DNA from: an uncultured Alphaproteobacteria bacterium
Lineage (GTDB): Bacteria; Pseudomonadota; Alphaproteobacteria; RF32; CAG-239
Direction of reading: 5' to 3'
Assembly: GCA_949297145.1 (NCBI GenBank)
Contig: CASFQO010000009.1
Coordinates: 1-64,000 of the forward strand
Length of the DNA stretch: 64,000 nucleotides
Shown: positions 110-30,127 of the stretch, in pieces
How positions within the stretch are numbered: position 1 is the stretch's first letter
Layout of the letters: each line of letters starts with the position of its first letter
Position numbers and translations under genes: made by a program
Notes under the pieces: generated by a model
Seen by the model: the letters and a program-made list of their open reading frames with translations, nothing else
Told to the model about the DNA's origin: nothing
The model's database searches: none

Positions 110-1618
110 ATGCATTATGCTCAAGTGCATTATCCGTTTGAAAATAAGGAATGGTTTGAAAATCACTTCCCAGCAGACTTTATTGTGGAAGCTATTGACC
201 AAACTCGCGGATGGTTTTATACATTGACGGTTCTTTCCACCGCTCTTCATAATAAACCCGCTTTCAAAAACTGTATTTGTACGGGATTATTGATGGCTGA
301 AGGCGGACAGAAGCTCTCTAAACGTTTGAAGAACTACCCTGATCCGAATGATATTCTGGAAACAATCGGTTCGGACGCTTTGCGTTGGTTCTTGATTTCT
401 TCTCCGGTTCTTAAAGGCGGTAATGTTGCTGTTGATAAAGAAGGTAAAGAAATTGCTAAAGCAGCTCGTAAAGCTCTTATTCCGTTCTGGAACGCTTATT
501 ATTTCTTTACCTTATATGCTAACGCTGAAGGAATTGAAGCAAAAGAGATTTCTCAATCTGCCGACGTGTTAGACAGCTATATCTTAGCTAAATTAAAGGC
601 TTTGTCTGATATCGTTCGCAAAGATATGAACGAATATGAAATTGCCAGAGCTTGTGCGCAAATTGAAGATTTCTTAGAAATTTTAAATAACTGGTACATT
701 CGTCGTTCCAGAGCTCGTTTCTGGGACGGAGAAGATTTGAGCGCTTTCAATACGCTTTATACCGTTTTGGTTAATGTGGCTAAGATTGCGGCTCCGCTTA
801 TGCCGTTTATGAGCGAATTTGTTTATAAAGGATTAACCGGGCGCGAATCCGTTCATCTTGAAGATTTACCGAATTTATCCGCTATTGCCGATAATGCGCA
901 GTTAATTGAGCAGATGGATATGGTTAGAGCTATTTCTTCGGTGGCTAAATCTATTCGTGAAGAGCATAAGCTGCGTAACCGTTTGCCTTTGCGCTCTATG
1001 ACGGTTGCCGGTGATAATGCCGAAACACTTAAAGACTTTGCGGATGCGCTAAAAGATGAAGTAAATGTTAAGGAAATTTATCTGAAGTCTGATATTGCTG
1101 ACGTTGCCGGTCGTTTCCTTTATCTAAAGACGCCGCTCATCGGTAAGAGACTTGGTGCGCATATGAAAGATATTATGGCTAAATCTAAGACTAATGAGTG
1201 GAAACAAAACGAAGACGGTACTCTTTCTATTGCCGGACAGACTTTGTTTGCAGAAGAGTATGAGCTTCGTCTCGTTATTAAAGATGGTATGAGCGGGCAG
1301 GCTTTACCTGACAATACAGCCGTTGTGATTTTGGATACGGAAGTTGATGAAAATCTTGAAAAAGAAGGTATTGCCCGCGATTTTGTTCGTATGATTCAAG
1401 CTCTTCGTAAAACTAAAGATTTTGATATTTCTGACCGTATCAAACTCGCTTATTCCTCTAATGATTCAACCGTTAAAGCGGCGATTTCTGAATATGCCGA
1501 CTATATTAAAGAGCAAGTTCTTGCTTTGGAAATTGCCGAAAATGCAAACCTTTCTGCACCGACTGTTGATGAACTTGGCGGCTCAGAAGTCAAATTTGAT
1601 GTTGTTAAAGCAGCCTAA
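110..1618 (+). CDS. ileS: isoleucyl-tRNA synthetase, C-terminal half (5' partial)
   Basis: Class I aminoacyl-tRNA synthetase that charges tRNA-Ile in the cytoplasm. The segment begins in the catalytic domain (HYPFENKEWFENHFPADF, then DQTRGWFYTL) and holds the KMSKS-type loop as QKLSKRLKN near residues 66-74. It then runs through the anticodon-binding domain (NNWYIRRSRARFW) and a long C-terminal region typical of the larger bacterial/eukaryotic-like IleRS type. The ATG at 110 is an internal Met, not the true start: IleRS homology continues upstream in frame through two stop codons. About half of a normal IleRS is present. A terminator follows the stop. Confidence 0.93.
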   Translation: MHYAQVHYPFENKEWFENHFPADFIVEAIDQTRGWFYTLTVLSTALHNKPAFKNCICTGLLMAEGGQKLSKRLKNYPDPNDILETIGSDALRWFLISSPVLKGGNVAVDKEGKEIAKAARKALIPFWNAYYFFTLYANAEGIEAKEISQSADVLDSYILAKLKALSDIVRKDMNEYEIARACAQIEDFLEILNNWYIRRSRARFWDGEDLSAFNTLYTVLVNVAKIAAPLMPFMSEFVYKGLTGRESVHLEDLPNLSAIADNAQLIEQMDMVRAISSVAKSIREEHKLRNRLPLRSMTVAGDNAETLKDFADALKDEVNVKEIYLKSDIADVAGRFLYLKTPLIGKRLGAHMKDIMAKSKTNEWKQNEDGTLSIAGQTLFAEEYELRLVIKDGMSGQALPDNTAVVILDTEVDENLEKEGIARDFVRMIQALRKTKDFDISDRIKLAYSSNDSTVKAAISEYADYIKEQVLALEIAENANLSAPTVDELGGSEVKFDVVKAA

Positions 1619-1647
1619 GTTTGATTATCTCGCATTTTGCATAAAAT

Positions 1648-1675
1648 AAGGGAGCAAATTTGCTCCCTTTATTAT
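1648..1675 (+). terminator. Rho-independent terminator of ileS
   Basis: A perfect palindrome GGGAGCAAATTTGCTCCC at 1650-1667 is followed by TTTATTATTGTTTT. It lies 30 bases after the ileS stop and before the convergent gene that ends at 1698. Confidence 0.8.
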
Positions 1676-1697
1676 TGTTTTATTTGCTATTATTGCG

Positions 1698-2957
1698 TTA
1701 TCTATCGCTTACTGGCTTTTGTTGGATAGCTTGCCATACCGGAGGGCACGAGGGAGGTTCTTTATCCTTTAAATCCAGAAATTTTTCTATTTCTTTGCTG
1801 GCAGACCAATTTTCCGGTATATCGTAGGCAAGGCTGTCTTTAGTTTCTCTGATATTCATCGCTTCTATCATTTCTTGAGGTAAACCCGCAAAGCTCTTTT
1901 GAATTTGTTTTACACCCAAATATGGCGTCTTATGGTGTTCAAATGTCACACTTTTGCCGTTATGTGTTGTTTTATATGGAGTGCCTAGCGTATCTTCAAT
2001 ATATGGATATAATTTGAGGCTGTTTTTTTCTGAATATTGATTTACATAATTTCTATAAGTATGCTCTATCATTAAACCCATAATATTGGCGTGTTTTTCA
2101 ACCGGTTGCTTACGATAGCTTTCAAATGCTTTATCTTGATATTTTCTTTGCTCTTCTTTATCTAAGGCGGAAATATCCTTTTTGCTCACAGAACTTAAAT
2201 AGTATGCAGAATTCATTTTTAACAACATTGCAAAATCATAGGGAATATCTTTGGCGGTTGTTCCTTGTTCCAACTGTTCTTTCATCCATTTTGCCGTTGT
2301 TTGAAAATAATAGTGTGTACCTTCGTGCCCCATCGTCTTCAAACTGCTATCATAGATACTTCCGTCTATTTCTATTCCGTTTATGCCGCTGGAACTCACA
2401 TTTGTTCTATCGGTTATTTGGATTTTGGCTAAAAATTGTTCAAATTCGTTTGGATTATCTATATCATAAGCTTCTTTTAGCATGACGACATTTATGTTGT
2501 TCATAGTCTCTGCACGAGAATTACGTTCAAAAGCAATGGCTGCACAATCTATATCTCCCCTTAACGCCAAATGCTGTCCGATTTCTTTGCCTTTTTTCAT
2601 CATAGCGGAATATTGCTCGGGTGATATTCTATAATTTTTATAGATTTTAACGAATTCTTCTTCACATTCCACAACAAATTCATTACGTAAAAATTGTGTA
2701 CTATCCAGTCTCGAACTTAGTTTTTTTAATTCTTCATCACTGATTTGATGCGCTTTCCATTTTTTGTGATATTTTTCCCATATAAATCCTTTATGCAGTA
2801 TGCTGTTTTGTATGCAATCTTCTATTCGGTCATACATTTTTAGCCAATCTCTGGTTGTCCACGATTGGATTGACTGCTCGTCTACTGTTTTTATCCATTT
2901 CTTGAAATTGTCGGCATATGATATTTTAGGACAAGGATTTTCTTCATAGTTGCTCAT
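1698..2957 (-). CDS. putative zinc metallopeptidase of unknown family (HEGTH motif)
   Basis: A 419-residue protein with no signal peptide or membrane segment, so probably cytoplasmic. The one clear motif is HEGTH at residues 211-215 within KTMGHEGTHYYFQTT, which fits the HExxH zinc site of metallopeptidases. A later helix, QPVEKHANIMG around residue 287, offers a Glu that could be the third ligand, as in gluzincins. The N-terminal half is charged and helical and the C-terminal tail is Pro-rich. The start at 2957 is backed by GGAG eight bases upstream. It stands alone between ileS (convergent) and ruvX (same strand, about 110 bases away). Substrate and family are not recognised; the metallopeptidase call rests on the motif. 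Confidence 0.6.
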   Translation of the reverse strand: MSNYEENPCPKISYADNFKKWIKTVDEQSIQSWTTRDWLKMYDRIEDCIQNSILHKGFIWEKYHKKWKAHQISDEELKKLSSRLDSTQFLRNEFVVECEEEFVKIYKNYRISPEQYSAMMKKGKEIGQHLALRGDIDCAAIAFERNSRAETMNNINVVMLKEAYDIDNPNEFEQFLAKIQITDRTNVSSSGINGIEIDGSIYDSSLKTMGHEGTHYYFQTTAKWMKEQLEQGTTAKDIPYDFAMLLKMNSAYYLSSVSKKDISALDKEEQRKYQDKAFESYRKQPVEKHANIMGLMIEHTYRNYVNQYSEKNSLKLYPYIEDTLGTPYKTTHNGKSVTFEHHKTPYLGVKQIQKSFAGLPQEMIEAMNIRETKDSLAYDIPENWSASKEIEKFLDLKDKEPPSCPPVWQAIQQKPVSDR

Positions 2958-3065
2958 TATGTTTTCTCCATCTCTTCTTGCACGAATATCTCTTGACCTT
3001 TTTACTTCGCTTGTTTTGTTATTTAGGTAAAATTATACTCTAAATATATCTTCTCTGCAAGTTTT

Positions 3066-3524
3066 TTATGCATATTTAAGGGCGTCCAAGGCTCCTTGCA
3101 AAATGTAGGCCGCTGCTGTTGCATCCAGCACCTTTGCCCGCTTTTTACGCGATAAATCTACTTCTTTTATCAAAAAATTTTCCATAGCTGACGATGATAA
3201 TCTTTCATCCCAGAGCAATATCGGCAAACCAATTTCTTCAGCTAAGACTTCCGCAAATTTGCGAACTTCTGCGGCAATTTCCCCCTCTACTCCATTCATC
3301 TGCAGCGGCAACCCCATAACGATACCGCCGATTTCTTTTTCTAAGATAATCTTCTTTAGCTCGGTTAAATCTTTTTCCATATTCGTGCGATGAATTATTT
3401 TATGCGATGTTGCGATGGTACAGGATAAATCCGATACGGCTATTCCCATTCTTTTACTGCCATAATCTATCCCTAATATGGCTTTGCGCGAGGGAAGTAT
3501 TTGCTTAAACTCTTTGGTATTCAT
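3066..3524 (-). CDS. ruvX: RuvX/YqgF, putative Holliday junction resolvase and 16S rRNA pre-processing nuclease
   Basis: RNase H-fold nuclease of the YqgF family, credited with pre-16S rRNA end maturation and possibly Holliday-junction resolution. The 152-residue protein has the usual length. The first catalytic Asp lies in GIDYGSKRMGIAVSD near residue 20, the central acidic residue precedes LPILLWDERLSS, and the last Asp is in KRAKVLDATAAAYILQ. The start has a clean SD (AAGGAG, then AAACA, then ATG). The gene reads away from the lytic transglycosylase, sharing its short promoter region. Confidence 0.93.
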   Translation of the reverse strand: MNTKEFKQILPSRKAILGIDYGSKRMGIAVSDLSCTIATSHKIIHRTNMEKDLTELKKIILEKEIGGIVMGLPLQMNGVEGEIAAEVRKFAEVLAEEIGLPILLWDERLSSSAMENFLIKEVDLSRKKRAKVLDATAAAYILQGALDALKYA

Positions 3525-3574
3525 TGTTTCTCCTTTTTTATTCTTGTAACATAAAAAATTTTTTCTGTAAACTG

Positions 3575-3604
3575 TTGAATGTTAGGATAAAATAAAGATA
3601 TTAT
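3575..3604 (+). promoter_or_regulatory. sigma70-type promoter of the lytic transglycosylase gene
   Basis: TTGAAT at 3575-3580 and TATTAT at 3599-3604 are 18 bases apart and lie about 45 bases upstream of the start at 3647. Called by inspection only. Confidence 0.45.
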
Positions 3605-7630: not shown

Positions 7631-10600
7631 GTGCTAAAAAAGATTATTGTCGGTATTTTGTGTTTTGTCATCTTAGCCGCTACAGGATGCGGTATATATC
7701 TCTATACCTTAGATTGGAATAAACACAAGACACTTGTTGCGCAACGTTTTTCGCAAATTACGGGACTTAAAGCCGTCATTGAGGGTAATTTGAATGTTAA
7801 ATTATTCCCTTCTCCTAAATTTTCTGCAAGCAAAGTTAAATTTTTCCCATCTACCGGTGGAAAAACACCTTTGGTTGTTGTCAATGATTTGACGGCAAAT
7901 GTTGATTTGATGCCTCTGCTTGATAACAATTTTGTTGTTAAATCAATGACTTTATCTAAAGCAACTGCGTATGTTGAAATTAATGACAAAGGTGTCAGCA
8001 ACTGGAATGGCGTTGGGAAAAACAGCATCAATAAATCTGGAAATATTGAGGTGTCTTTTAATGATGTTCAAGTTTCGGACTCTACTTTAAGTTATAAAAA
8101 TCTTGAAGACAATTCTCAATTTGACATTAAGAATATTTCGGCAAATATTTCTGCTCCATCTTTATCTGGTCCATATAAAACAAGCGGTAAATTTATCCAC
8201 AATAATAACGAGATCCGCTTTAAGGGGGATATTGCAAAAAATAATGGTTTGGTCCTCAAATCTGAATTAACTAATGCTAGCAGCGGCTCTAAACTTACTT
8301 TAGACGGAACACTTGGTGAGAAAGCACAAGGTACAGTTACTTTAGATACGCGTAGCTTATTTGATTTTTCTAATATCGTTTGGGGTAAAGATGCCATTTC
8401 TAATCGATATAGCAAACCTTTATTCTTATCTTTTCAATATAATTACGATAAGTCTTTGCTGAAGCTCGATAACTTTACTACTAAATTTGATAAAAATACT
8501 GCCGGCAGCGGTACTGTTATTGTTAATAAAACGGCTGAAATTCCTCAAATTAACGCCTCTTTTGATTTAACTAAATTTGATTTAAATATTATTGAGGATT
8601 TGGCTAAAGATCTTGTTGAATATACAACATCAGGTAAAAAATTTGTTGAATCTCCTTTTAGTGGTTATGATGTTAGCTTATCCGCAAAAGCCACATCGGC
8701 TTGGTATAATAATATTGAAGCTCGTAATTTAACCATGGCTTTTAACCTCACGCAAAATATATTAGATATTACGCGGTTCGGCGTTGTTATGCCTGGTGAG
8801 TCGATTATCAAAACTGTCGGAAAAATTAATCTTAATAACGGTGTGGAATATATTTTCAATCAGTCATTTGATACTAAAGATTTGCGCACATTTGCTTCTG
8901 TTTTTAATTTAGATTTGGCTAAACTTGCTTCAGCTGATAATAAAAAATCTATTTTTAAGCGGGCTCAAGCTGATATTAAATTGGTCGGCAATCTTGATAG
9001 TATTAAGATTTCTTTACCGCAAGCCTCTATTGATGCTACCGATTTTAGAGGCAATATCGGTGTTGTTAAAAAGGATAAAGTTTTTGTTTTGGCTGATATG
9101 GATGTTTCCAAAGTTATTCTTGATAAATACTTATTGGGTATACCGGATAGCTTAAAGGATGCTTCATTAAAAGATAAATTTGTTTATCAAATGAATTTAC
9201 TGCCTTGGAACAGAGATTTTAATGTTGATGCAGAGCTTAATGTGAACAGTCTTGTTTATAATAATATTCCGATGGAAAAACTTTCTTTGCATTTTATTTC
9301 TGAGAAAGATAACTTAAAAGTTAATAAACTTTCTGCTGGCAGTTTGGCGGGCGCTGAGGTTAATCTTAAAATGGATGCGCAAAATATCTTCACAATACCT
9401 CAATTTAATGAGCTAAGTTTTGATGTAAAAACCGACAATTTTCCTTTATTTGCCTCAACTTTAGGTATCAATACCGGTACTAAAGGACTGTTTAAGAGAA
9501 AAATTTTTGCAACACAAGGCGCTCTCAGCGGCAACTTTGATGAATTTAGTTTAAGTTCTGTGCAAAAATTTGGCGATACAGAATTTGCATATACCGGTCT
9601 TGTTCGTAATGATACTAAAAATCCTTTAACCATCAATGGTGATTTGGAGTTGAAAACAAATAATTTCAACCTTTTTGTTCGGGCTTTGGGCTTAAATTAC
9701 ACTGCAGATATTCCTGTTACCACCTTTGCTCTTTCTTCTAAAATTAAAGGTTCTGATAAACTGTTTTCTTTAGATAATGCAACTGCATATTTTGGGGCAA
9801 ATGCCATTAAAGGTTCTGTACAATTTGATGATACAGGATTAAAGCCCATACTAAAATCTAACTTATCTTTCGATAAATTTGATGCAGACAGATGGTTTAA
9901 TCTTAATAAATATCTTGCGGATGTTCCTGAAACGCAAACAAATGGTACTTTTTTAGCAAAAGATTTTTCAGATAAAAATATTGACTACTCGGCTCTGGCT
10001 AAAATTGATTTTGACATAGATGTTGCAGCTCATCTGTTAACATTTAGAGGGAAAAATTATTCTGATGCCAAAACTAAGCTTTCCTTAAAAGATAGTTTAT
10101 TAAAGGTTGCTTCTTTTGATGCAACTATTGATAAGAGCATTATTAACTTTCGCTTTGACTTGAATACAGCTGATTTGCCTAGAATCGATGGCTATTTCAA
10201 TATTAAAGACCTTAAGATACCGGAATTTGGCGGCTCTCTCTATACGGTTGAAGAAGGTTGGCTCACCGCTGAAGGTACCTTTAATTCTGCGGCTAATTCA
10301 GAAAAAGATTTCTTTGAGAATTTAAATTCTAAAGGTAAATTCTCTTTTGCCAATACAGCTATTCGTGGTTGGGATTTGGATATTATCAAATTTGAATTAG
10401 AGCAAAGAAAGTCTGTTGCCGGTTTTGAAGATACTGTGACAAATAGTTTAAAATCCGGTAAAAGCAGTTTTTCAAAAATCAGAGGTGCTTATAATATTAG
10501 CAAAGGGTTTGTGGTTGCCGATAGTGTTATTTGGGAGTCTCCAGTTGTTAATATGAATATGAAGTTTGACTTAAACTTGAGCGACTGGTTGTTTAATGCT

Positions 10601-12925
10601 ATATTTAGTGCGGTCTACCATAATGCCTCATTCTCTGATATTCTTAAATTTACTTTTGATGGAAACATGGCTAATCCAAATCTTTCATTAGACTTAGAAG
10701 AAAGTATTAAACGTATTAGCGGTATAGAAGATAAAATTAAAAATGCTCGCCAATATAAGGAAAAAGCAAAAATGGAAAAAATCGGCGACAAATTAAAAGC
10801 TTTACAAAGAGCCGTTGACGGTGCTCTTCAGGACATCAACCGCTTGACTCTTGAGGTTGTCCGTTTTAAGCCAATTACGCAAAATGAAAATGTCGTTTCG
10901 GTTTATCAGGATAACCTTAAAACAATCGCTCAAGCTGAAATCAATATTAAAAAGATGAAGGATCAGCTCAACAACTACCCCAACGAAGAAACTTTGATGA
11001 ATATTGAAGCTGAACTGGGTGCTGAAAAAGCTAAATTAAAGTATATTCCCAAAGTCTTAGAAGAGAACTATGTTGTAGACAGTAAATATATATTTGACGA
11101 CACCTTTAACAAAATTGCTTGGATATATAATTTATCACAAAATAACTATGCTTATCATCACAGCCTAACAGATGTTTATATGGCTCAGGTTGAATTTATG
11201 AAATCTAGTCCAACTCCTGTGAGTGAGGAGAATATTCAAAAGCTTCAAGACGGTTTGGATAAAACAAAAGAAGTTATGGATAATATTAGTGCGCTACATG
11301 GTAAGATCAGAGATAATTATCTGAATATTATTGATTCTGTTAAAGTTTCGCAAATGAAAGAAAATAATGATATTGCTCGTCAAGCTTTGGAAACATTGCT
11401 TACTTATTCTAAGCAGCTGTATAACGACATTGTCATTAATATTGATGATTTCCGTGCTATTTTAAGCATTACTTCCAGAGATTATGACCAATACATGATT
11501 TATCCTCCGGAGACAACCGCTGATATTGATATCAGACAACCGACATTAAAAACCGGAGGCAAAGCTGTCTCATCAACAAAAGATGATGTTAAATCCGGTG
11601 AATCTAATGAAGAACAAAGTTCTGTTCCTTCCTCTCCGGAAAAAAAGGCTGATACGTCGGCAGCTTCTAACGTTTCAGCAGCAGCAACTGTTCAGCAGAA
11701 TCTTGATAAAAAAAAAGAGTCTTTTAGTTTAGCTCTCCAAGCTAATGCCGATAACGGGTTAATTAATGTTTTAGATGACATCCAAAATAAGAAAAAGCTT
11801 GATAAAGGTATTGAATTGGCATCTAATTTGGATTTTGGCGGATTATCCGAAATTTTCAAAAGTAATATAAGTGTTGAAAAAACTCCGAAGGTTGCAGTGG
11901 CCAATATCCCGCAAAAAGACTTATTAAAGAACGATGTTTCATTATCTAAAGAAGATACAACCCAGAAAGCTGCGGCAGAAACTTCTATCTCTAGCAAAGT
12001 CCCTACCCCTACATTAAAAGAGGACAAGCCTGTTGTTGTATCTCAAAAAGATACGACTCAAATTGCTGCAAATTCTTCTAAGTATCAAATTTCCGCACAT
12101 GATGATAATATTCTCGAAAAAACAAAAAATGCTATTGCTAGCATTCTTGCCAAGGTTAAGAAGCAAGAAAAAGCTTTAGAAAAAGATTTTGCTAAAAATA
12201 ATGCTGTATTGCCTGTTAAAACGACTGACAAATCTAAGGAAATATCAAAAACTGAGGAACCATCTTCTGTCAATAAATCTAGAGATACTCTTGTTGCAGA
12301 TGTTAAAAATATTCCGACTTTACCGACTTCTCCAAACAAAATATCCAGCAAAAAGTCCTTACCTTCTTCTCTGAAGGTAAATCCGGTTGTCGCACTTAAT
12401 ATTGGAAAAGAAGATGTTCCTTCGCTTACATCAACTTCACTTCCTCCAATAACGGCTAAAGGCAAATTTAAAAAAGTTGCTAAGAAAACTAATAATAAAA
12501 ATGCATCTCCGACAAAGCTTTCTGCCGCTCAAATTGATAAATTTTCAAATTTTATTGATGAGGCTATAGATGGTGAAAAGAAAGTAGAGCCAGATAATGC
12601 TTCTGCTTTGTTAGATATTCTACCTCGTCCGCAACATACCTCACCTGCTGATGATATTAATAACCTGACAGACGCTGCTCTGGTTGCCGTTAGTGACCTC
12701 TCTTACGAAAAAGAAGATACTTCTCATCATGATAATCTCTATGTCATCAAAAATGCAACGCCTTTCTCCTCTGAGCTAAGCGGTCACGTTGGCAAAGAAA
12801 TGTTAAAGGATATTCACATCAGCTCGCCTGCTAAACCTCAGCAAAAATATCTTTTTGCCGTCAATACATCCCTATCTATACCCACAACCGGAAAAGTTGC
12901 CAAACAGTTCTCTTTTGCTGATTAG
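7631..12925 (+). CDS. very large AsmA-like protein with coiled-coil and disordered C-terminal region
   Basis: A 1764-residue member of the AsmA/TamB-like superfamily, which is linked to lipid transport and outer-membrane homeostasis. Residues about 5-27 form an inner-membrane anchor. The AsmA N-terminal domain follows (VAQRFSQITGLKAVIEGNLNVKLFPSPKFSASKVKF). Residues about 30-1030 are beta-rich repeats, with an AsmA C-terminal signature around 920-1000 (GKFSFANTAIRGWDLDIIKFELEQ). A helical coiled-coil stretch occupies about 1030-1290, and from about 1300 to the end the chain is Ser/Lys/Thr-rich and looks disordered. It begins with GTG after a good SD (GGAG). Roughly the last 700 residues have no counterpart in ordinary AsmA (600-1100 residues). 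Confidence 0.8.
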   Translation: MLKKIIVGILCFVILAATGCGIYLYTLDWNKHKTLVAQRFSQITGLKAVIEGNLNVKLFPSPKFSASKVKFFPSTGGKTPLVVVNDLTANVDLMPLLDNNFVVKSMTLSKATAYVEINDKGVSNWNGVGKNSINKSGNIEVSFNDVQVSDSTLSYKNLEDNSQFDIKNISANISAPSLSGPYKTSGKFIHNNNEIRFKGDIAKNNGLVLKSELTNASSGSKLTLDGTLGEKAQGTVTLDTRSLFDFSNIVWGKDAISNRYSKPLFLSFQYNYDKSLLKLDNFTTKFDKNTAGSGTVIVNKTAEIPQINASFDLTKFDLNIIEDLAKDLVEYTTSGKKFVESPFSGYDVSLSAKATSAWYNNIEARNLTMAFNLTQNILDITRFGVVMPGESIIKTVGKINLNNGVEYIFNQSFDTKDLRTFASVFNLDLAKLASADNKKSIFKRAQADIKLVGNLDSIKISLPQASIDATDFRGNIGVVKKDKVFVLADMDVSKVILDKYLLGIPDSLKDASLKDKFVYQMNLLPWNRDFNVDAELNVNSLVYNNIPMEKLSLHFISEKDNLKVNKLSAGSLAGAEVNLKMDAQNIFTIPQFNELSFDVKTDNFPLFASTLGINTGTKGLFKRKIFATQGALSGNFDEFSLSSVQKFGDTEFAYTGLVRNDTKNPLTINGDLELKTNNFNLFVRALGLNYTADIPVTTFALSSKIKGSDKLFSLDNATAYFGANAIKGSVQFDDTGLKPILKSNLSFDKFDADRWFNLNKYLADVPETQTNGTFLAKDFSDKNIDYSALAKIDFDIDVAAHLLTFRGKNYSDAKTKLSLKDSLLKVASFDATIDKSIINFRFDLNTADLPRIDGYFNIKDLKIPEFGGSLYTVEEGWLTAEGTFNSAANSEKDFFENLNSKGKFSFANTAIRGWDLDIIKFELEQRKSVAGFEDTVTNSLKSGKSSFSKIRGAYNISKGFVVADSVIWESPVVNMNMKFDLNLSDWLFNAIFSAVYHNASFSDILKFTFDGNMANPNLSLDLEESIKRISGIEDKIKNARQYKEKAKMEKIGDKLKALQRAVDGALQDINRLTLEVVRFKPITQNENVVSVYQDNLKTIAQAEINIKKMKDQLNNYPNEETLMNIEAELGAEKAKLKYIPKVLEENYVVDSKYIFDDTFNKIAWIYNLSQNNYAYHHSLTDVYMAQVEFMKSSPTPVSEENIQKLQDGLDKTKEVMDNISALHGKIRDNYLNIIDSVKVSQMKENNDIARQALETLLTYSKQLYNDIVINIDDFRAILSITSRDYDQYMIYPPETTADIDIRQPTLKTGGKAVSSTKDDVKSGESNEEQSSVPSSPEKKADTSAASNVSAAATVQQNLDKKKESFSLALQANADNGLINVLDDIQNKKKLDKGIELASNLDFGGLSEIFKSNISVEKTPKVAVANIPQKDLLKNDVSLSKEDTTQKAAAETSISSKVPTPTLKEDKPVVVSQKDTTQIAANSSKYQISAHDDNILEKTKNAIASILAKVKKQEKALEKDFAKNNAVLPVKTTDKSKEISKTEEPSSVNKSRDTLVADVKNIPTLPTSPNKISSKKSLPSSLKVNPVVALNIGKEDVPSLTSTSLPPITAKGKFKKVAKKTNNKNASPTKLSAAQIDKFSNFIDEAIDGEKKVEPDNASALLDILPRPQHTSPADDINNLTDAALVAVSDLSYEKEDTSHHDNLYVIKNATPFSSELSGHVGKEMLKDIHISSPAKPQQKYLFAVNTSLSIPTTGKVAKQFSFAD

Positions 12926-19780: not shown

Positions 19781-20569
19781 ATGTATTTTGATTTTCCCAA
19801 TATCTCTCCTATCATTTTTTCTGTTGGGCCTTTTTCTCTGCGTTGGTATGCTTTAGCCTATCTTATCGGAATTATATCTGCGTGGATGCTTACTAAAAGA
19901 AATATCAAAAAATATAATTTGGGAATCTCTGATGAACAATTAGATGATTTGGTTTTTTATGTTACTTTGGGGATTATCTTAGGTGGTCGGTTAGGTTATG
20001 TTTGTTGCTACGGAAATGGCTATTTTTGGGAAAATCCTCAAGAAATTATCGCTTTGTGGCACGGCGGTATGTCTTTCCATGGCGGTATAATCGGCGTTAT
20101 AATCGGGCTTTTCTTATTTGCCAGAAAATATAAATTTCCTTTTCTTAAAATAACGGATATTGTTGCTTTATATGTGCCTATCGGAATCTTTTTAGGCAGA
20201 CTTGCTAATTTTGTTAATGATGAATTATGGGGACGGGTCACAACAGTGCCGTGGGCCGTTAAATTTCCTGAAGGGGGCTATCTGCCTCGTCATCCCTCGC
20301 AGCTTTATGAAGCTATGCTTGAGGGAGTGGTTATGTTTATTATCCTTAATCTTTTATGGAAAAAGCCTTTTGTCAGAGAGCACTTTGGTATTACCTCTGC
20401 GGTTTTCTTGATTGTTTATGCGATTTCTCGTGTTATCGTGGAATTTTTCAGAGAGCCGGATCAGCAAATCGGTTTCCTTTTAGGCGGTATTACCATGGGG
20501 CAGCTTTTGTCGCTTCCTTTTTTGCTGCTGGGAGTTTATGTCCTCCACCGCTCGGTCAAAAAATCTTAA
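19781..20569 (+). CDS. lgt: phosphatidylglycerol-prolipoprotein diacylglyceryl transferase
   Basis: Inner-membrane enzyme that transfers diacylglycerol from phosphatidylglycerol to the lipobox Cys of prolipoproteins, the first step of lipoprotein maturation. The 262 residues include about seven membrane helices. The Lgt signature is RLANFVNDELWGRVT near residues 143-157, preceded by WHGGMSFHGGIIG with the essential His and followed by HPSQLYEAMLEG. The SD GGAG sits six bases before the ATG. This window has several predicted substrates (17523-18467, LptE, the TolC-like protein). The last bases overlap the convergent GGDEF-like gene. Confidence 0.96.
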   Translation: MYFDFPNISPIIFSVGPFSLRWYALAYLIGIISAWMLTKRNIKKYNLGISDEQLDDLVFYVTLGIILGGRLGYVCCYGNGYFWENPQEIIALWHGGMSFHGGIIGVIIGLFLFARKYKFPFLKITDIVALYVPIGIFLGRLANFVNDELWGRVTTVPWAVKFPEGGYLPRHPSQLYEAMLEGVVMFIILNLLWKKPFVREHFGITSAVFLIVYAISRVIVEFFREPDQQIGFLLGGITMGQLLSLPFLLLGVYVLHRSVKKS

Positions 20570-22884: not shown

Positions 22885-23014
22885 TGTTCTTTCCTTTATC
22901 TATTTTTTCCACGGTTATAACCCTGCTTATTTATTTTGGCAACCCCTTTTTTATTTACAGCTTTTTTACTTTTGACAATTTTTTAAAAATTTATTTAAAA
23001 TCGACAAAAAGTAG

Positions 23015-23043: not shown

Positions 23044-23080
23044 GCCAGTAAATAATGGTCTTTTTTTGGAGATGAATACG

Positions 23081-26000
23081 ATGACTGATGCTTTTGATAG
23101 CATGGATTTAAATACAGCTTATGAAATAGCTGGCGGATATATTGAAGCTGATGACAAAACTTTTGAGCAAGCTCTGAAAATGGTTCGCGAAGACGATGAA
23201 CGTTTTGCTCAAGAGCTTAAAAACGCTCATGAAGCTCAACGCCGCTTTGCCGAAAAACAAGAAAAAGAAGAAGCTATTACCGCTTCGGCAGAAGAAGCTC
23301 TTGAAAATGCGTCTTTCATTAAAGCTGAATTTGATGATGAAAAATTGAAACAAGCTTTCTTTGACGATAAAGAAGTTAAAGAAGCTGAAAAGAATACGCC
23401 TGTTTATGACATTAACCCTGAAACCCAAGAACGCTTTGAGCTTGATGGGGATGAGAAACATGCTCACTTTGAAATGTTATATGAAAAGGCTAAACTTGAT
23501 GTTTGGCGCGAAGAAGCAGGTAATAAAGAATTTAGTCAGCTTGACGCTAAGAAAAAGAAAAATCGTTTGTTCTCCGCTATTAAAAGCTCTTTCTTAGGTA
23601 CTTTGGCTCACTTGAGAACTTCGGCTCAGGTTGAAAATGAAGTTCCTCAGGCTGCTGAAGCTGTTAAATCTGATAATAAAAATTTCTTTGCAAGACAAGC
23701 AGCTTCCATGCTTGCTAAAGTTCAAAAGGCCATCAACTTTGATAAAGAAGTCAGAATTTCATCAAGCTCCGTTATGGCAGCTTGTGCCGAATCGGAAGCC
23801 AAGACAAATTCTTTTGCTAAAAAGTTTGCTGATTTAGCTAAGAAATCTTCCGGCAAAGCCAAAGAATGCTACTCTAAAGTATCTGTTTTAACTCACAAAT
23901 TTAAAGAGTCTTTTGTTTCTAAAGCTAAAGTTGTTTGGGGACAACGTTATGAGTTTATGGCAAACATCCGCGATAGAGCTCCGAAAATTGCAACAGATTT
24001 GGCTGCTACCGGTGTTTTGGTCGGCGCTACCGTTGCGTCTGCACCGTGGCTTGGTACCGCCGTTATTGCCTATGGTGCTTATAAAGCGACTTCCGCTTGG
24101 GTTTGGCCGGTCGTTACACACGCTAGAAAGGCTCAGCGCTTAGCTAAAAATGATGAAAAAGCTCCTAAAATGAGTTTCTTCAAGAGATTGAAACAATCTG
24201 CAAACCAAGTTGTTGGCACGAAAGATTATTACAAAGAAGCCGGATGGGGTTGCGCTGCCGGATTGCTCGGCTTGGGTGCCGCCGGTGCTACTGCAGGTCT
24301 TGGTGCCGGTGCTCTTGTTCAAAAGAGCTTTCAATCTTTATCCAGCACAGCTGTTTATACAACTAACAGTATCACCAACGCCGTTAAAAAATTAAAAGAA
24401 AAAGACGGTAATTGGTGGAGCAAAGGTCTGGCTGTTGCTTCGGCTGCTGTTATGACTTACGTTTTAGCATCCTGCGGTGATCACGCTGAAGATGTCGTCA
24501 GAACCACTCAAGTTAACGGCGGCTTACCGAACGAACCTATATTTACACCTAAAGCTGCTAATGCTGTACAAGAGCAAGCAACACAGGTTGCTCAGGCGGC
24601 TCCTGTTCAAATCAGTGTTCCGGAAAACTGGGAAGCCAGCATGGGTATTACCGAGCAGCAATGGACAAGATTACAAAGTTTCTGGGGTGGTGAAGCTCAA
24701 TATAATTACTTCTACAAAAAAATTACCGACGATATGCTTAAAGACGGTGGTATTTTTGCCGGTAAAACTCGTGAACAAGTTTTGTTTGAATATGAGCGTT
24801 TGTCTTCTTGGAATTTACCTCAACATCAGGAAGTCATCAGACGTATGGATTCATTCTTCGGATGTGATGGCGAAGAACGCATTATGTTAACTACCGAAGA
24901 CACCAAATCTTTAAATGACGTTATGCCTAACGGTTCTATCCGTGATGTTAACGGCAGTGCATGCGTTCGTGTTACTGGACGTGAAGTTAACTGCGGTGAG
25001 GAAGCTATCCGTCATGATGAAAAGATTGATTGCGGATGCGAAGAACATGTTGTTGTTAACGAAACTGTTCAACAACCTACTGTTAATGAACCTGCTCAAG
25101 CGGCAAGTTCTGAACCTACTTTCACGGAAGTTGAGGGTGAGACACATTATGTTGCTGTTCCTCGGTCTGAAGAGCAAGCTGTTAATCCAGCTGTTAAAGT
25201 TGTGAAAGCTAACAACCTTCAACCTGGAAAAATTATAGGCAAAACTGATGCTTCTACAGTTGCTCAAACTCAGGCAGACAATGTTGAAGTTGTTATCGGG
25301 AAAGGTAGTGCTGAAGCTGCCAGTGAAAATGCTCAAGGTGATGCTAGTGGTATTGTTATCACGGATGATATAGAATTTGAGGAAATTCCTGGTAATACAA
25401 TTTATGCTGATGACGCAGCCAGACAAGCTGCTCAACACGTGTCTGCGACTGGTGAGGAAATTTCATTTACGGAAGTTCCCGGACGCACAATTAAAGTTCC
25501 CGCAGGAGATGCTGCATCGCAAGAAGCAGTTGCGGAAGGCGCTGATCCTGTTGCTTCTGCCGTGAATGGTGATGTTAAAGAAACTATTATTCCTAATTCT
25601 GCGGATATTGAAGTTGGAACTCCGGCTGCTGATAATGTTCCAGAACGCGGCGGATATATGAATACCGGTTTGACAGAAAAACAATATCATCGTATGGAAG
25701 CTTTCTTTAAGGATAAATTCGGTGAGAATGCTTTTGAAGATTATATGAATAGAATCACTGATGATATGCGTGCCAAAGGTGGTATGTTCGAAGGTTTAAG
25801 TAAGGCTCAGGCTTTATATTCCGTTCAGCAAATGACAGCTTGGTCTAATGATCAGCATGGCGCTTTTGCTAAAGAAATTTCTACTATGATTGAATATTTA
25901 AAAGGCGAATGTAAAGATACTGTTACCTTAACCGAATCCGAGCAAATCAAAGCTATTATTGATAAAGTTAACGAAAACGGTACTATTGACGGCGTAACCG

Positions 26001-26566
26001 GAAAAAATAATACAATGGTTAAATATTTCCAAGCTAACGATTGTGGCGAGGCCGGAACCTATAATATTCAGGATGTGGCCGGAAATTCTCATACAACGCA
26101 ACCTTCCGGTAACAAATTTGCTCGTTTCTTTAAGAAAATTTGGAACACTTCTCCAGAGCCTGTCTTTACAGAAGTTGAAGGTGAAACACGTTATATACCT
26201 GTTGTTCATGTTCAGGAAGAAGTTGTTGATCCTAGCGTTGTGGTTGTTAAGGCTAATAACTTGCAACCGGGCAAAGTTCTTGGTGAAACAAGTGCTGATG
26301 CCGTTAGTAACGTCCAAGCTGACAATGTTGAAGTTGTTATCGGGGAGGCTTCATCTACTCCTGCCAGTGAAGCTGCTGTTGAAGCAGCAAAAGAGCGTGT
26401 TGCTGGCAAGGTTTCTAAAAAAGCTGCCGAAACAGCTTCTGAAGTTCCTGCCGATAAATTAACTAAAGAGGCTGAGGCTTATGTTCGTTCAAGAGGATTT
26501 GATCCGAAAAAAGTTAATCCGAATTTATATAAATATCTTAACGAAGGACGCGGAAAAAATAACTAG
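23081..26566 (+). CDS. large duplicated-domain protein of unknown family
   Basis: A 1161-residue acidic protein matching no family I recognise. Residues 1-300 are charged and helical with long coiled-coil-like runs. Three hydrophobic segments lie near 303-345, 387-412 and 448-463, the last ending VLASC, which looks like an internal lipobox. Two copies of a helical domain (about 514-650 and 855-990) align as ITEQQWTRLQSFW / LTEKQYHRMEAFF and ITDDMLKDGGIFAG / ITDDMRAKGGMFEG. Two copies of a linker block (about 678-750 and 1026-1100) share FTEVEGET, VKANNLQPGK and QADNVEVVIG. A short motif F.E(V/I).G.T occurs four times. GGAG nine bases before the ATG at 23081 sets the start. It has its own promoter and terminator, so it is probably monocistronic. 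A surface, envelope or secreted role is a guess. Confidence 0.75.
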   Translation: MTDAFDSMDLNTAYEIAGGYIEADDKTFEQALKMVREDDERFAQELKNAHEAQRRFAEKQEKEEAITASAEEALENASFIKAEFDDEKLKQAFFDDKEVKEAEKNTPVYDINPETQERFELDGDEKHAHFEMLYEKAKLDVWREEAGNKEFSQLDAKKKKNRLFSAIKSSFLGTLAHLRTSAQVENEVPQAAEAVKSDNKNFFARQAASMLAKVQKAINFDKEVRISSSSVMAACAESEAKTNSFAKKFADLAKKSSGKAKECYSKVSVLTHKFKESFVSKAKVVWGQRYEFMANIRDRAPKIATDLAATGVLVGATVASAPWLGTAVIAYGAYKATSAWVWPVVTHARKAQRLAKNDEKAPKMSFFKRLKQSANQVVGTKDYYKEAGWGCAAGLLGLGAAGATAGLGAGALVQKSFQSLSSTAVYTTNSITNAVKKLKEKDGNWWSKGLAVASAAVMTYVLASCGDHAEDVVRTTQVNGGLPNEPIFTPKAANAVQEQATQVAQAAPVQISVPENWEASMGITEQQWTRLQSFWGGEAQYNYFYKKITDDMLKDGGIFAGKTREQVLFEYERLSSWNLPQHQEVIRRMDSFFGCDGEERIMLTTEDTKSLNDVMPNGSIRDVNGSACVRVTGREVNCGEEAIRHDEKIDCGCEEHVVVNETVQQPTVNEPAQAASSEPTFTEVEGETHYVAVPRSEEQAVNPAVKVVKANNLQPGKIIGKTDASTVAQTQADNVEVVIGKGSAEAASENAQGDASGIVITDDIEFEEIPGNTIYADDAARQAAQHVSATGEEISFTEVPGRTIKVPAGDAASQEAVAEGADPVASAVNGDVKETIIPNSADIEVGTPAADNVPERGGYMNTGLTEKQYHRMEAFFKDKFGENAFEDYMNRITDDMRAKGGMFEGLSKAQALYSVQQMTAWSNDQHGAFAKEISTMIEYLKGECKDTVTLTESEQIKAIIDKVNENGTIDGVTGKNNTMVKYFQANDCGEAGTYNIQDVAGNSHTTQPSGNKFARFFKKIWNTSPEPVFTEVEGETRYIPVVHVQEEVVDPSVVVVKANNLQPGKVLGETSADAVSNVQADNVEVVIGEASSTPASEAAVEAAKERVAGKVSKKAAETASEVPADKLTKEAEAYVRSRGFDPKKVNPNLYKYLNEGRGKNN

Positions 26567-26592: not shown

Positions 26593-26629
26593 ACTGAAAA
26601 TGGCCCTTGAGCCATTTTCAGTTTTTTTA
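26593..26629 (+). terminator. Rho-independent terminator of the 1161-residue protein gene
   Basis: ACTGAAAATGGC at 26593-26604 and GCCATTTTCAGT at 26611-26622 form a perfect 12-bp stem with loop CCTTGA, followed by a run of T to about 26628. Confidence 0.93.
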
Positions 26630-29347: not shown

Positions 29348-30127
29348 ATGAACTACAGAACTATGTTATTAGCAACAGCTGCGGTACTTTTTAGTTCCCA
29401 AGCTATGGCTGCAGATATTACTAATCCTTTCTTTACACCTAATAAAGGACAGATTGTTTCTGATACCAATGTTGGTTATTATCGTACAAAATACAAACAC
29501 AACCAAGGTGTTGATGAAGGTTACTATGCTGCAGAAACATTAGAATATGGTATTACAGACAAGTTCAGCATTAACGGTACAATCGCTAACATGTTTGATA
29601 CTCAAGGCGAATATAATAATGACCACAACTTTGCATATCAAATCGGCGCAAAATATAACACTAACTGCGATAAAGTTTTGTTCCAAGTTGCCGCAAATTA
29701 TACAACTCTTGAACCTCAATCTTGGATGGGAAGTGAATATACTAACCACTGGTACAAGAGATTGGATGGCGAAATCAAGCTCGGTTATGATATGGGCAAT
29801 GGTTTAACACCTTATGCTTCTTACATCATTTCCGGCAATATTGATAATGGTGACAGAGATTTAGACCAATCCGTTAAAATCGGTGCTCATAAATATTTCG
29901 GCAAATATGCTCTTGATTTAGGTTTACGCTATAACTTCAGTACTGATGGCGGCAATAATCTTTATGAAGGAAGCTATAATGATTTGTGGGCAGAGGCTGC
30001 CGCTGACTACTATGTAAAAGAAAATATCGCTGTTGGTATTTATGGTAGTTATCGTATTGATGGTTCTTATGACAAGAATCTTGATTACGCCTATACAGCA
30101 GGTGCTCATTTGAAAGTTTTATTCTAA
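29348..30127 (+). CDS. small beta-barrel outer-membrane protein
   Basis: A 259-residue protein with a clear signal peptide (MNYRTMLLATAAVLFSSQAMA, then ADIT). The mature part is rich in Tyr, Gly and Asn, with alternating strands (NVGYYRTKYKHNQ, AETLEYGITDKFSINGTIANMF, YALDLGLRYNFS) and ends with AYTAGAHLKVLF, whose terminal Phe fits a barrel recognised by BamA. This suggests a 10-12 strand outer-membrane barrel. The specific family is not recognised. It stands alone, with a strong terminator after it and a palindrome before it. Confidence 0.75.
   Translation: MNYRTMLLATAAVLFSSQAMAADITNPFFTPNKGQIVSDTNVGYYRTKYKHNQGVDEGYYAAETLEYGITDKFSINGTIANMFDTQGEYNNDHNFAYQIGAKYNTNCDKVLFQVAANYTTLEPQSWMGSEYTNHWYKRLDGEIKLGYDMGNGLTPYASYIISGNIDNGDRDLDQSVKIGAHKYFGKYALDLGLRYNFSTDGGNNLYEGSYNDLWAEAAADYYVKENIAVGIYGSYRIDGSYDKNLDYAYTAGAHLKVLF

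Follow-up and report, generated by a model that had tools for sequence, protein, structure and literature searches.

An undescribed protein family of one order of uncultured gut Alphaproteobacteria, with a possible role as envelope tether

The window (the whole stretch of 64 000 nucleotides that was analysed) carries a gene for a large protein of an undescribed family, specific to one order of uncultured gut Alphaproteobacteria. The family is found in most genera of this order and is probably part of their envelope. An earlier note on this DNA had described a large protein with duplicated domains; the open reading frame, the repeated domain of about 150 residues and the repeated linker block of 60 residues are all borne out. 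We read the window protein as an order-specific envelope tether anchored in the inner membrane, which would combine a helical domain in the cytoplasm with membrane segments and with exported domains that are stapled by disulphides and carried on flexible linkers, and we give this reading an even chance of being right. The features of the gene are as follows (position in the window, strand, description).

22972..23001, +, sigma-70-like promoter match, TTGACA-18-TAAAAT, 11/12
23081..26566, +, open reading frame, 1161 aa; GGAG at 23068-23071, 9 nt 5' of the ATG
23102..23242, +, N-terminal helical motif of about 47 residues (residues 8-54), with two or three copies in some relatives
23258..23950, +, almost all-helical, probably cytoplasmic domain (residues 60-290); ten-residue pLDDT means 72-97, most >90
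23990..24124, +, hydrophobic stretch read as a hairpin (residues 304-348), K/R-rich on either side
24263..24319, +, Gly/Ala-rich hydrophobic segment (residues 395-413)
24425..24481, +, last hydrophobic segment (residues 449-467)
24464..24475, +, lipobox-like LASC (residues 462-465, Cys465) at the end of the last hydrophobic segment
24596..25051, +, domain copy 1 (residues 506-657), with Cys595 and Cys638
25121..25300, +, linker block copy 1 (residues 681-740)
25619..26101, +, domain copy 2 (residues 847-1007), with Cys944 and Cys988
26165..26344, +, linker block copy 2 (residues 1029-1088)
26593..26622, +, intrinsic-terminator-like stem of 12 pairs, followed by a T run

The reading frame is uninterrupted from 23081 to 26566 (+) and codes for 1161 residues. 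The alternative starts TTG 23066 and ATG 23072 lie upstream and are less likely than ATG 23081, which is favoured because GGAG 23068-23071 sits 9 nt before it. The near-consensus promoter and strong terminator reported earlier are both present, but such sites are no commoner in the region than in shuffled sequences (eight promoter-like and four terminator-like sites, versus shuffle means of 8.4 and 3.9). The suggestion of good expression receives mild support from codon usage relative to gapA and pgk, for which the gene ranks fifth among the 35 window reading frames scored (reference pair included). The names gapA, pgk and queA, and those of the genes beside the relative L156, are our presumptive assignments from reading the sequences. 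The third place in this ranking is taken by a 259-aa protein (29348-30127, +) in which we read a barrel-like pattern and, at the N-terminus, a signal-like stretch; it has no Pfam match at 0.01. Elsewhere in the window, an AsmA-family protein of 1764 aa is encoded at 7631-12925 (+).

Searched with the single sequence, 35 of the 127 genomes of the family-rank group contain relatives. The profile built from 31 proteins extends this to 82 of the 127, and to 104 of the 154 genomes of the order, representing 13 of its 17 genera. In a sample of the class, the same profile matches only four of 385 genomes: three belong to the window genome's own family (the window genome included) and one gives a weak partial match. 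A profile of the repeated domain is matched in 68 of 129 genomes of the order and, in a sample of the phylum, in one of 398, the window genome itself. The gene is therefore no isolated oddity but a member of a family that is conserved in, and specific to, this order. The window genome has a single copy, with no paralogue at E <= 10 in the single-sequence search; in genomes G138 and G142 of genus g12, the family profile matches on two contigs. A mobile origin was rejected, no match being found in phage or plasmid records or in viral contigs. The order is presumably the one named RF32/CAG-239; PMC12306168, background here, concerns the order Rs-D84, with smaller genomes.

Three further proteins, L157, L158 and L159 (1074, 1643 and 1230 aa; genera g8, g2 and g9), have a similar hydrophobic layout and weak profile matches. 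In one scan the family profile gives weak matches to L157 and L159 and none to L158, though the genome of L158 matched at 1.9e-7. They are possible, highly diverged members of the family.

The gene had been described as sitting alone. No dedicated partner is seen, but a divergent queA adjoins it in 25 of the 31 mapped loci; the others are four loci of genus g12 without queA as neighbour and two cut by contig ends. The term 'protein system' is unsupported, because there is one gene and no dedicated partner is seen. Within the window genus, the run lgt, GGDEF-like gene, queA, family gene, gapA and pgk is kept as far as the contigs reach, and the order from lgt to the family gene is common to many relatives. 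The lgt gene was identified by Pfam, and the GGDEF match is below its cut-off. In the window, Lgt (prolipoprotein diacylglyceryl transferase) is encoded at 19781-20569 (+), three genes before the family gene. Searches for queA were made in 20 genomes, most of them picked for a missing or weak family match, and of the 13 queA loci retrieved, 11 have another gene upstream of queA, G002 has the family gene there, and the contig of G120 ends within queA. Among the 20, no queA match was found in G092 or G038.

The absence of a recognisable family holds after sensitive searches: Pfam, NCBIfam, PHROGs, PDB sequences and fold searches return no convincing match. In Pfam, the best score of the window protein is 12.4 bits, for DUF2895, with a cut-off of 22.6; NCBIfam has no match for it, and PDB profile searches with its family give nothing of weight. 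When the 31 relatives were scanned against families, the matches were scattered and nearly all confined to single members. AlphaFold models residues 1-480 well (pTM 0.76), with residues 60-290 helical except for a small hairpin at 108-120. The model of residues 500-1010 is poor overall (mean pLDDT 52, pTM 0.34); the domain cores reach ten-residue pLDDT means of 60-91 in copy 1 and 53-81 in copy 2, and the stretch between them stays below 50. Foldseek finds no significant match and VIA-align no clear match for either model, so structure prediction also yields no convincing known fold relative, which does not demonstrate a new fold. The first Foldseek row for the N-terminal model is SmhB (7a0g), an alpha-pore-forming toxin subunit, at values that are not meaningful (E = 0.19, probability 0.11, TM 0.09).

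DUF2895, a family of integrating-conjugative-element proteins (PFL_4703; PF11444, TIGR03746), was followed up because the relative L043 passes its cut-off, with 44 residues of domain copy 2 scoring 23.5 bits against 22.6. The two families share the pattern QQxxAW...YL..C in the profile alignment. Membership is rejected: besides the low score of the whole window protein, its copy 2 alone scores 16.9 bits, only the copy 2 of L043 exceeds the cut-off among the ten copy-2 sequences scanned, three of the 49 domain copies match at E <= 0.01, and the matches span 39-44 of the 198 profile positions rather than most of the profile. A comparison of profile with profile, based on nine members of DUF2895 taken as frames from stop to stop, in which some leader residues may be uncoded, gives a probability of 4% with all copies and, with copy 2 alone, 54% and E = 1.3e-4 in a database of one.

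The earlier note had placed three hydrophobic segments in a charged N-terminal third; the charged, helical N-terminal part and the three segments are there, but the segments (residues 312-330, 395-413 and 449-467) lie in the second quarter of the protein, and their mean hydropathy is modest (1.35-1.71). The N-terminal motif of about 47 residues is present in two copies in L049 and in three in L062; outside this protein, one marginal match (E = 0.043) was found in the 30 genomes searched. N76 is invariant in the N-terminal alignment of the family, and the first hydrophobic stretch has three residues, Y331, Y334 and P343, that at least 90% of 36 aligned sequences share. Two later parts of the protein align with each other, each with a domain of about 150 residues followed by a 60-residue block. 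These parts are identical in 97 of 260 columns (37%, E = 9e-41), and the strings FTEVEGET, VKANNLQPGK and QADNVEVVIG, said to occur twice, are read at residues 681-740 and 1029-1088.

A domain-model search of 55 family proteins assigns the full duplication to the window genus, because two copies are found there in 16 of 17 proteins (L049 has one) and mostly one elsewhere: among the 38 proteins of other genera, 28 have one copy, eight have none detectable, and L114 and L068 have two matches, at least one of them partial. In the domain alignment, from which five near relatives were left out, copies 1 and 2 of the window protein are 22% identical; compared with copy 1 in other proteins of the genus, its copy 1 shows 37-64% identity for eight of them and about 20% for L050 and L051. 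The domain copies are thus old.

The linker blocks show a different pattern. In each of the 17 proteins, block 1 and block 2 match one another with local scores of 97-243, versus 45-75 for the best of 100 shuffles. Between 11 representatives of the 17, block 1 and block 2 score 24-95, most near the shuffle level, and block 1 against block 1 scores 24-157, the highest pair being L042-L043. Judged from these comparisons, the two blocks evolve in concert within each protein, which makes the repeat more interesting than the earlier note had claimed and gives a compact single-gene example of concerted evolution. Agreement between the blocks at fourfold sites is 0.29-0.60 in 11 of 14 proteins, versus 0.33-0.47 expected from codon bias. 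It is raised in the window protein (0.68 versus 0.47), L037 (0.69 versus 0.48) and L047 (0.71 versus 0.50); the uncorrected one-sided P is 0.02 for the window protein and 0.07 for L047. Gene conversion as the sole cause of the matching linkers appears doubtful, with no clear fourfold excess in these 11 of 14; old conversion events and co-selection each fit.

Linkers that match within each of the 17 proteins and hardly between most of the 11 representative species could also belong to a surface-displayed adhesin or receptor-like protein, with fast-evolving, internally alike linkers facing outside and domains that bind a ligand. The middle and tail regions are indeed the least conserved when compared with more distant orthologues, and repeats of the APADSLG/APVDSLG type are present in L056 and L054. 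However, disordered linkers evolve fast even when they are not exposed, no outer-membrane or secretion module is recognisable, and adhesins seldom have a cytoplasmic domain and membrane segments. We regard this explanation as unlikely.

The tether reading draws on the good N-terminal model, the modelled domain cores, the divergent position beside queA, the charges and the cysteines. The loops beside the hydrophobic segments are rich in K and R (K + R/D + E of 10/4, 11/4 and 4/2) and residues 466-1161 are acidic (65/110), which fits and suggests an N-in/C-out orientation of the last segment. The modest hydropathy of the segments and the slightly acidic character of residues 1-303 (51/57) count against the tether reading, as do the poor overall C-terminal model and the relative L156, in which one hydrophobic segment follows a long N-terminal region rich in repeats. 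Compared with the closest relative, the membrane region is identical at 164 of 164 residues and agrees at 77 of 93 fourfold sites; this region is thus under purifying selection. In the alignment of the domain, one glycine and two cysteines are kept in at least 90% of 49 copies, at a mean identity of 20%. Three other cysteines, Cys628, Cys651 and Cys653, are all present in nine and all absent in seven of 16 aligned proteins of the genus. This conservation of the domain pairs, together with the all-or-none occurrence of the other three, is read as disulphides in an exported part, and suggests both disulphide formation and export.

The reading frame, the family, the duplication, the conserved cysteines and the concerted linkers are direct observations, from which we infer the topology, the disulphides, the tether function and the partners of the protein, and tethering in particular from the arrangement of its parts; the fold searches give no match that offers a biochemical clue. 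Residues 1-300 would form a cytoplasmic, almost all-helical domain that binds an inner partner, and residues 300-467 would provide Gly/Ala-rich membrane segments of low hydrophobicity, the last helix being N-in/C-out. Residues 468-1161 would be exported, as flexible, fast-evolving linkers bearing the two helical domains of about 150 residues, each stapled by its conserved cysteine pair; held away from the membrane, the domains would most likely bind a partner in the periplasm or the outer envelope. Lipidation of this exported part at Cys465 is a further possibility in the window genus.

TolA and TonB are inner-membrane tethers that span the envelope. They resemble the window protein in arrangement only (an anchor, a long exported linker and small domains), and no convincing sequence or fold relation was found. 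Neither has a match in the window protein in Pfam or NCBIfam; among the 31 members scanned, TonB profiles reach E values of 0.012 and 0.022, in one member each. TolA and TonB are not known to contain a helical domain in the cytoplasm or domains stapled by cysteines.

The domain may not always be outside, because L155, a protein of 272 aa, carries it with no visible export signal. This favours a further explanation, a cytoplasmic or membrane scaffold in which the repeats would be structural spacers and the cysteines reduced or metal-binding. Export is favoured instead by the acidic C-terminal half, preceded as it is by a positively flanked last hydrophobic segment, and the domain cysteines match no metal-site pattern known to us; we consider a scaffold very unlikely. 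L155 (1646-2461, -) and L154 (1-681, +; a 227-aa frame open at the contig start) are both from genus g14; they contain the domain, have no visible membrane segments and end in GR.

To return to Cys465, the tether could have been elaborated in the window genus by an internal lipobox. Lgt would lipidate Cys465 and LspA would cut there, leaving a polytopic N-terminal membrane protein and a separate lipoprotein of about 697 aa with both domains. We find lipidation or cleavage at this site plausible from the motif and its setting, while use of the protein as such a polyprotein is doubtful. The pattern [LVIM][ASTVGI][GAS]C stands at the end of the last hydrophobic segment, near residue 465, in 12 of the 17 proteins of the genus, and the narrower [LVI][ASTVI][GAS]C in ten; these carriers are related and hence not independent. 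L046 and L047 have NCC instead, L045 and L069 have no cysteine, and L050 has TFSC. In a like-for-like count of distinct internal segments above one shared hydropathy threshold, the motif occurs in 9 of 37 segments of the genus, 1 of 103 segments of the family outside the genus (an earlier segment of L070) and 1 of 579 segments of neighbouring reading frames; the genus count is affected by L039, whose segment falls below the threshold, and by L048, which breaks off just short of its segment. At the last segment, the motif is seen in none of the 38 proteins of other genera, although the lgt-queA neighbourhood is also found in genera without it. The diverged proteins L049, L050 and L051 are missing the two earlier segments and retain the last one, with the motif in L049 and L051.

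Lgt is encoded three genes away and LspA is found in 116 of the 127 genomes of the family-rank group, but LspA was not found in the 87%-complete assembly of the window genome. Like the substrates of Lgt and LspA, the window protein has K/R residues and then a hydrophobic helix ending in a lipobox-like cysteine; unlike them, it has no N-terminal signal peptide, and its motif is internal, behind other hydrophobic segments and about 450 coded residues. The likeness to classical lipoproteins, as that to DUF2895, thus breaks down at a tested feature, and the protein is not placed in any known family. Start-type codons within residues 380-465 are TTG395, TTG398 and ATG458. A separate internal start at TTG398 is unlikely and is retained as a possibility because GGA lies nine bases upstream. 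Were the internal lipobox in use, maturation as a lipoprotein would split a polytopic protein in its middle, and predictors that consider only the N-terminus would miss it. No such internal case was noticed in the literature consulted, which is not proof of absence. A wider scenario joins these elements: in the window genus a polytopic protein would have gained an interior lipoprotein signal, Lgt and LspA would split it, and its linkers would be kept alike by gene conversion or by a shared, fast-changing partner. We consider this combination rather improbable.

The C-terminal ends of the family also follow a pattern. GR is the terminal pair in 15 of 56 complete family ends, versus 1 of 325 ends of conserved neighbours; a G, at most one of G/R/N/S and then R occur within the last eight residues in 25 of the 56 and 4 of the 325, respectively. 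Of the 15 proteins ending in GR, 13 are from outside the window genus, and several window-genus proteins have an NPxLxKWI-like end instead. The GR-ending relatives include L060, L104, L108 and L156. In the last of these (1095-3596, +), PEVKEEVKEEPAPAPVV units recur along the extended N-terminal region, ahead of the only hydrophobic segment; the adjoining gene is presumably alanine-racemase-like.
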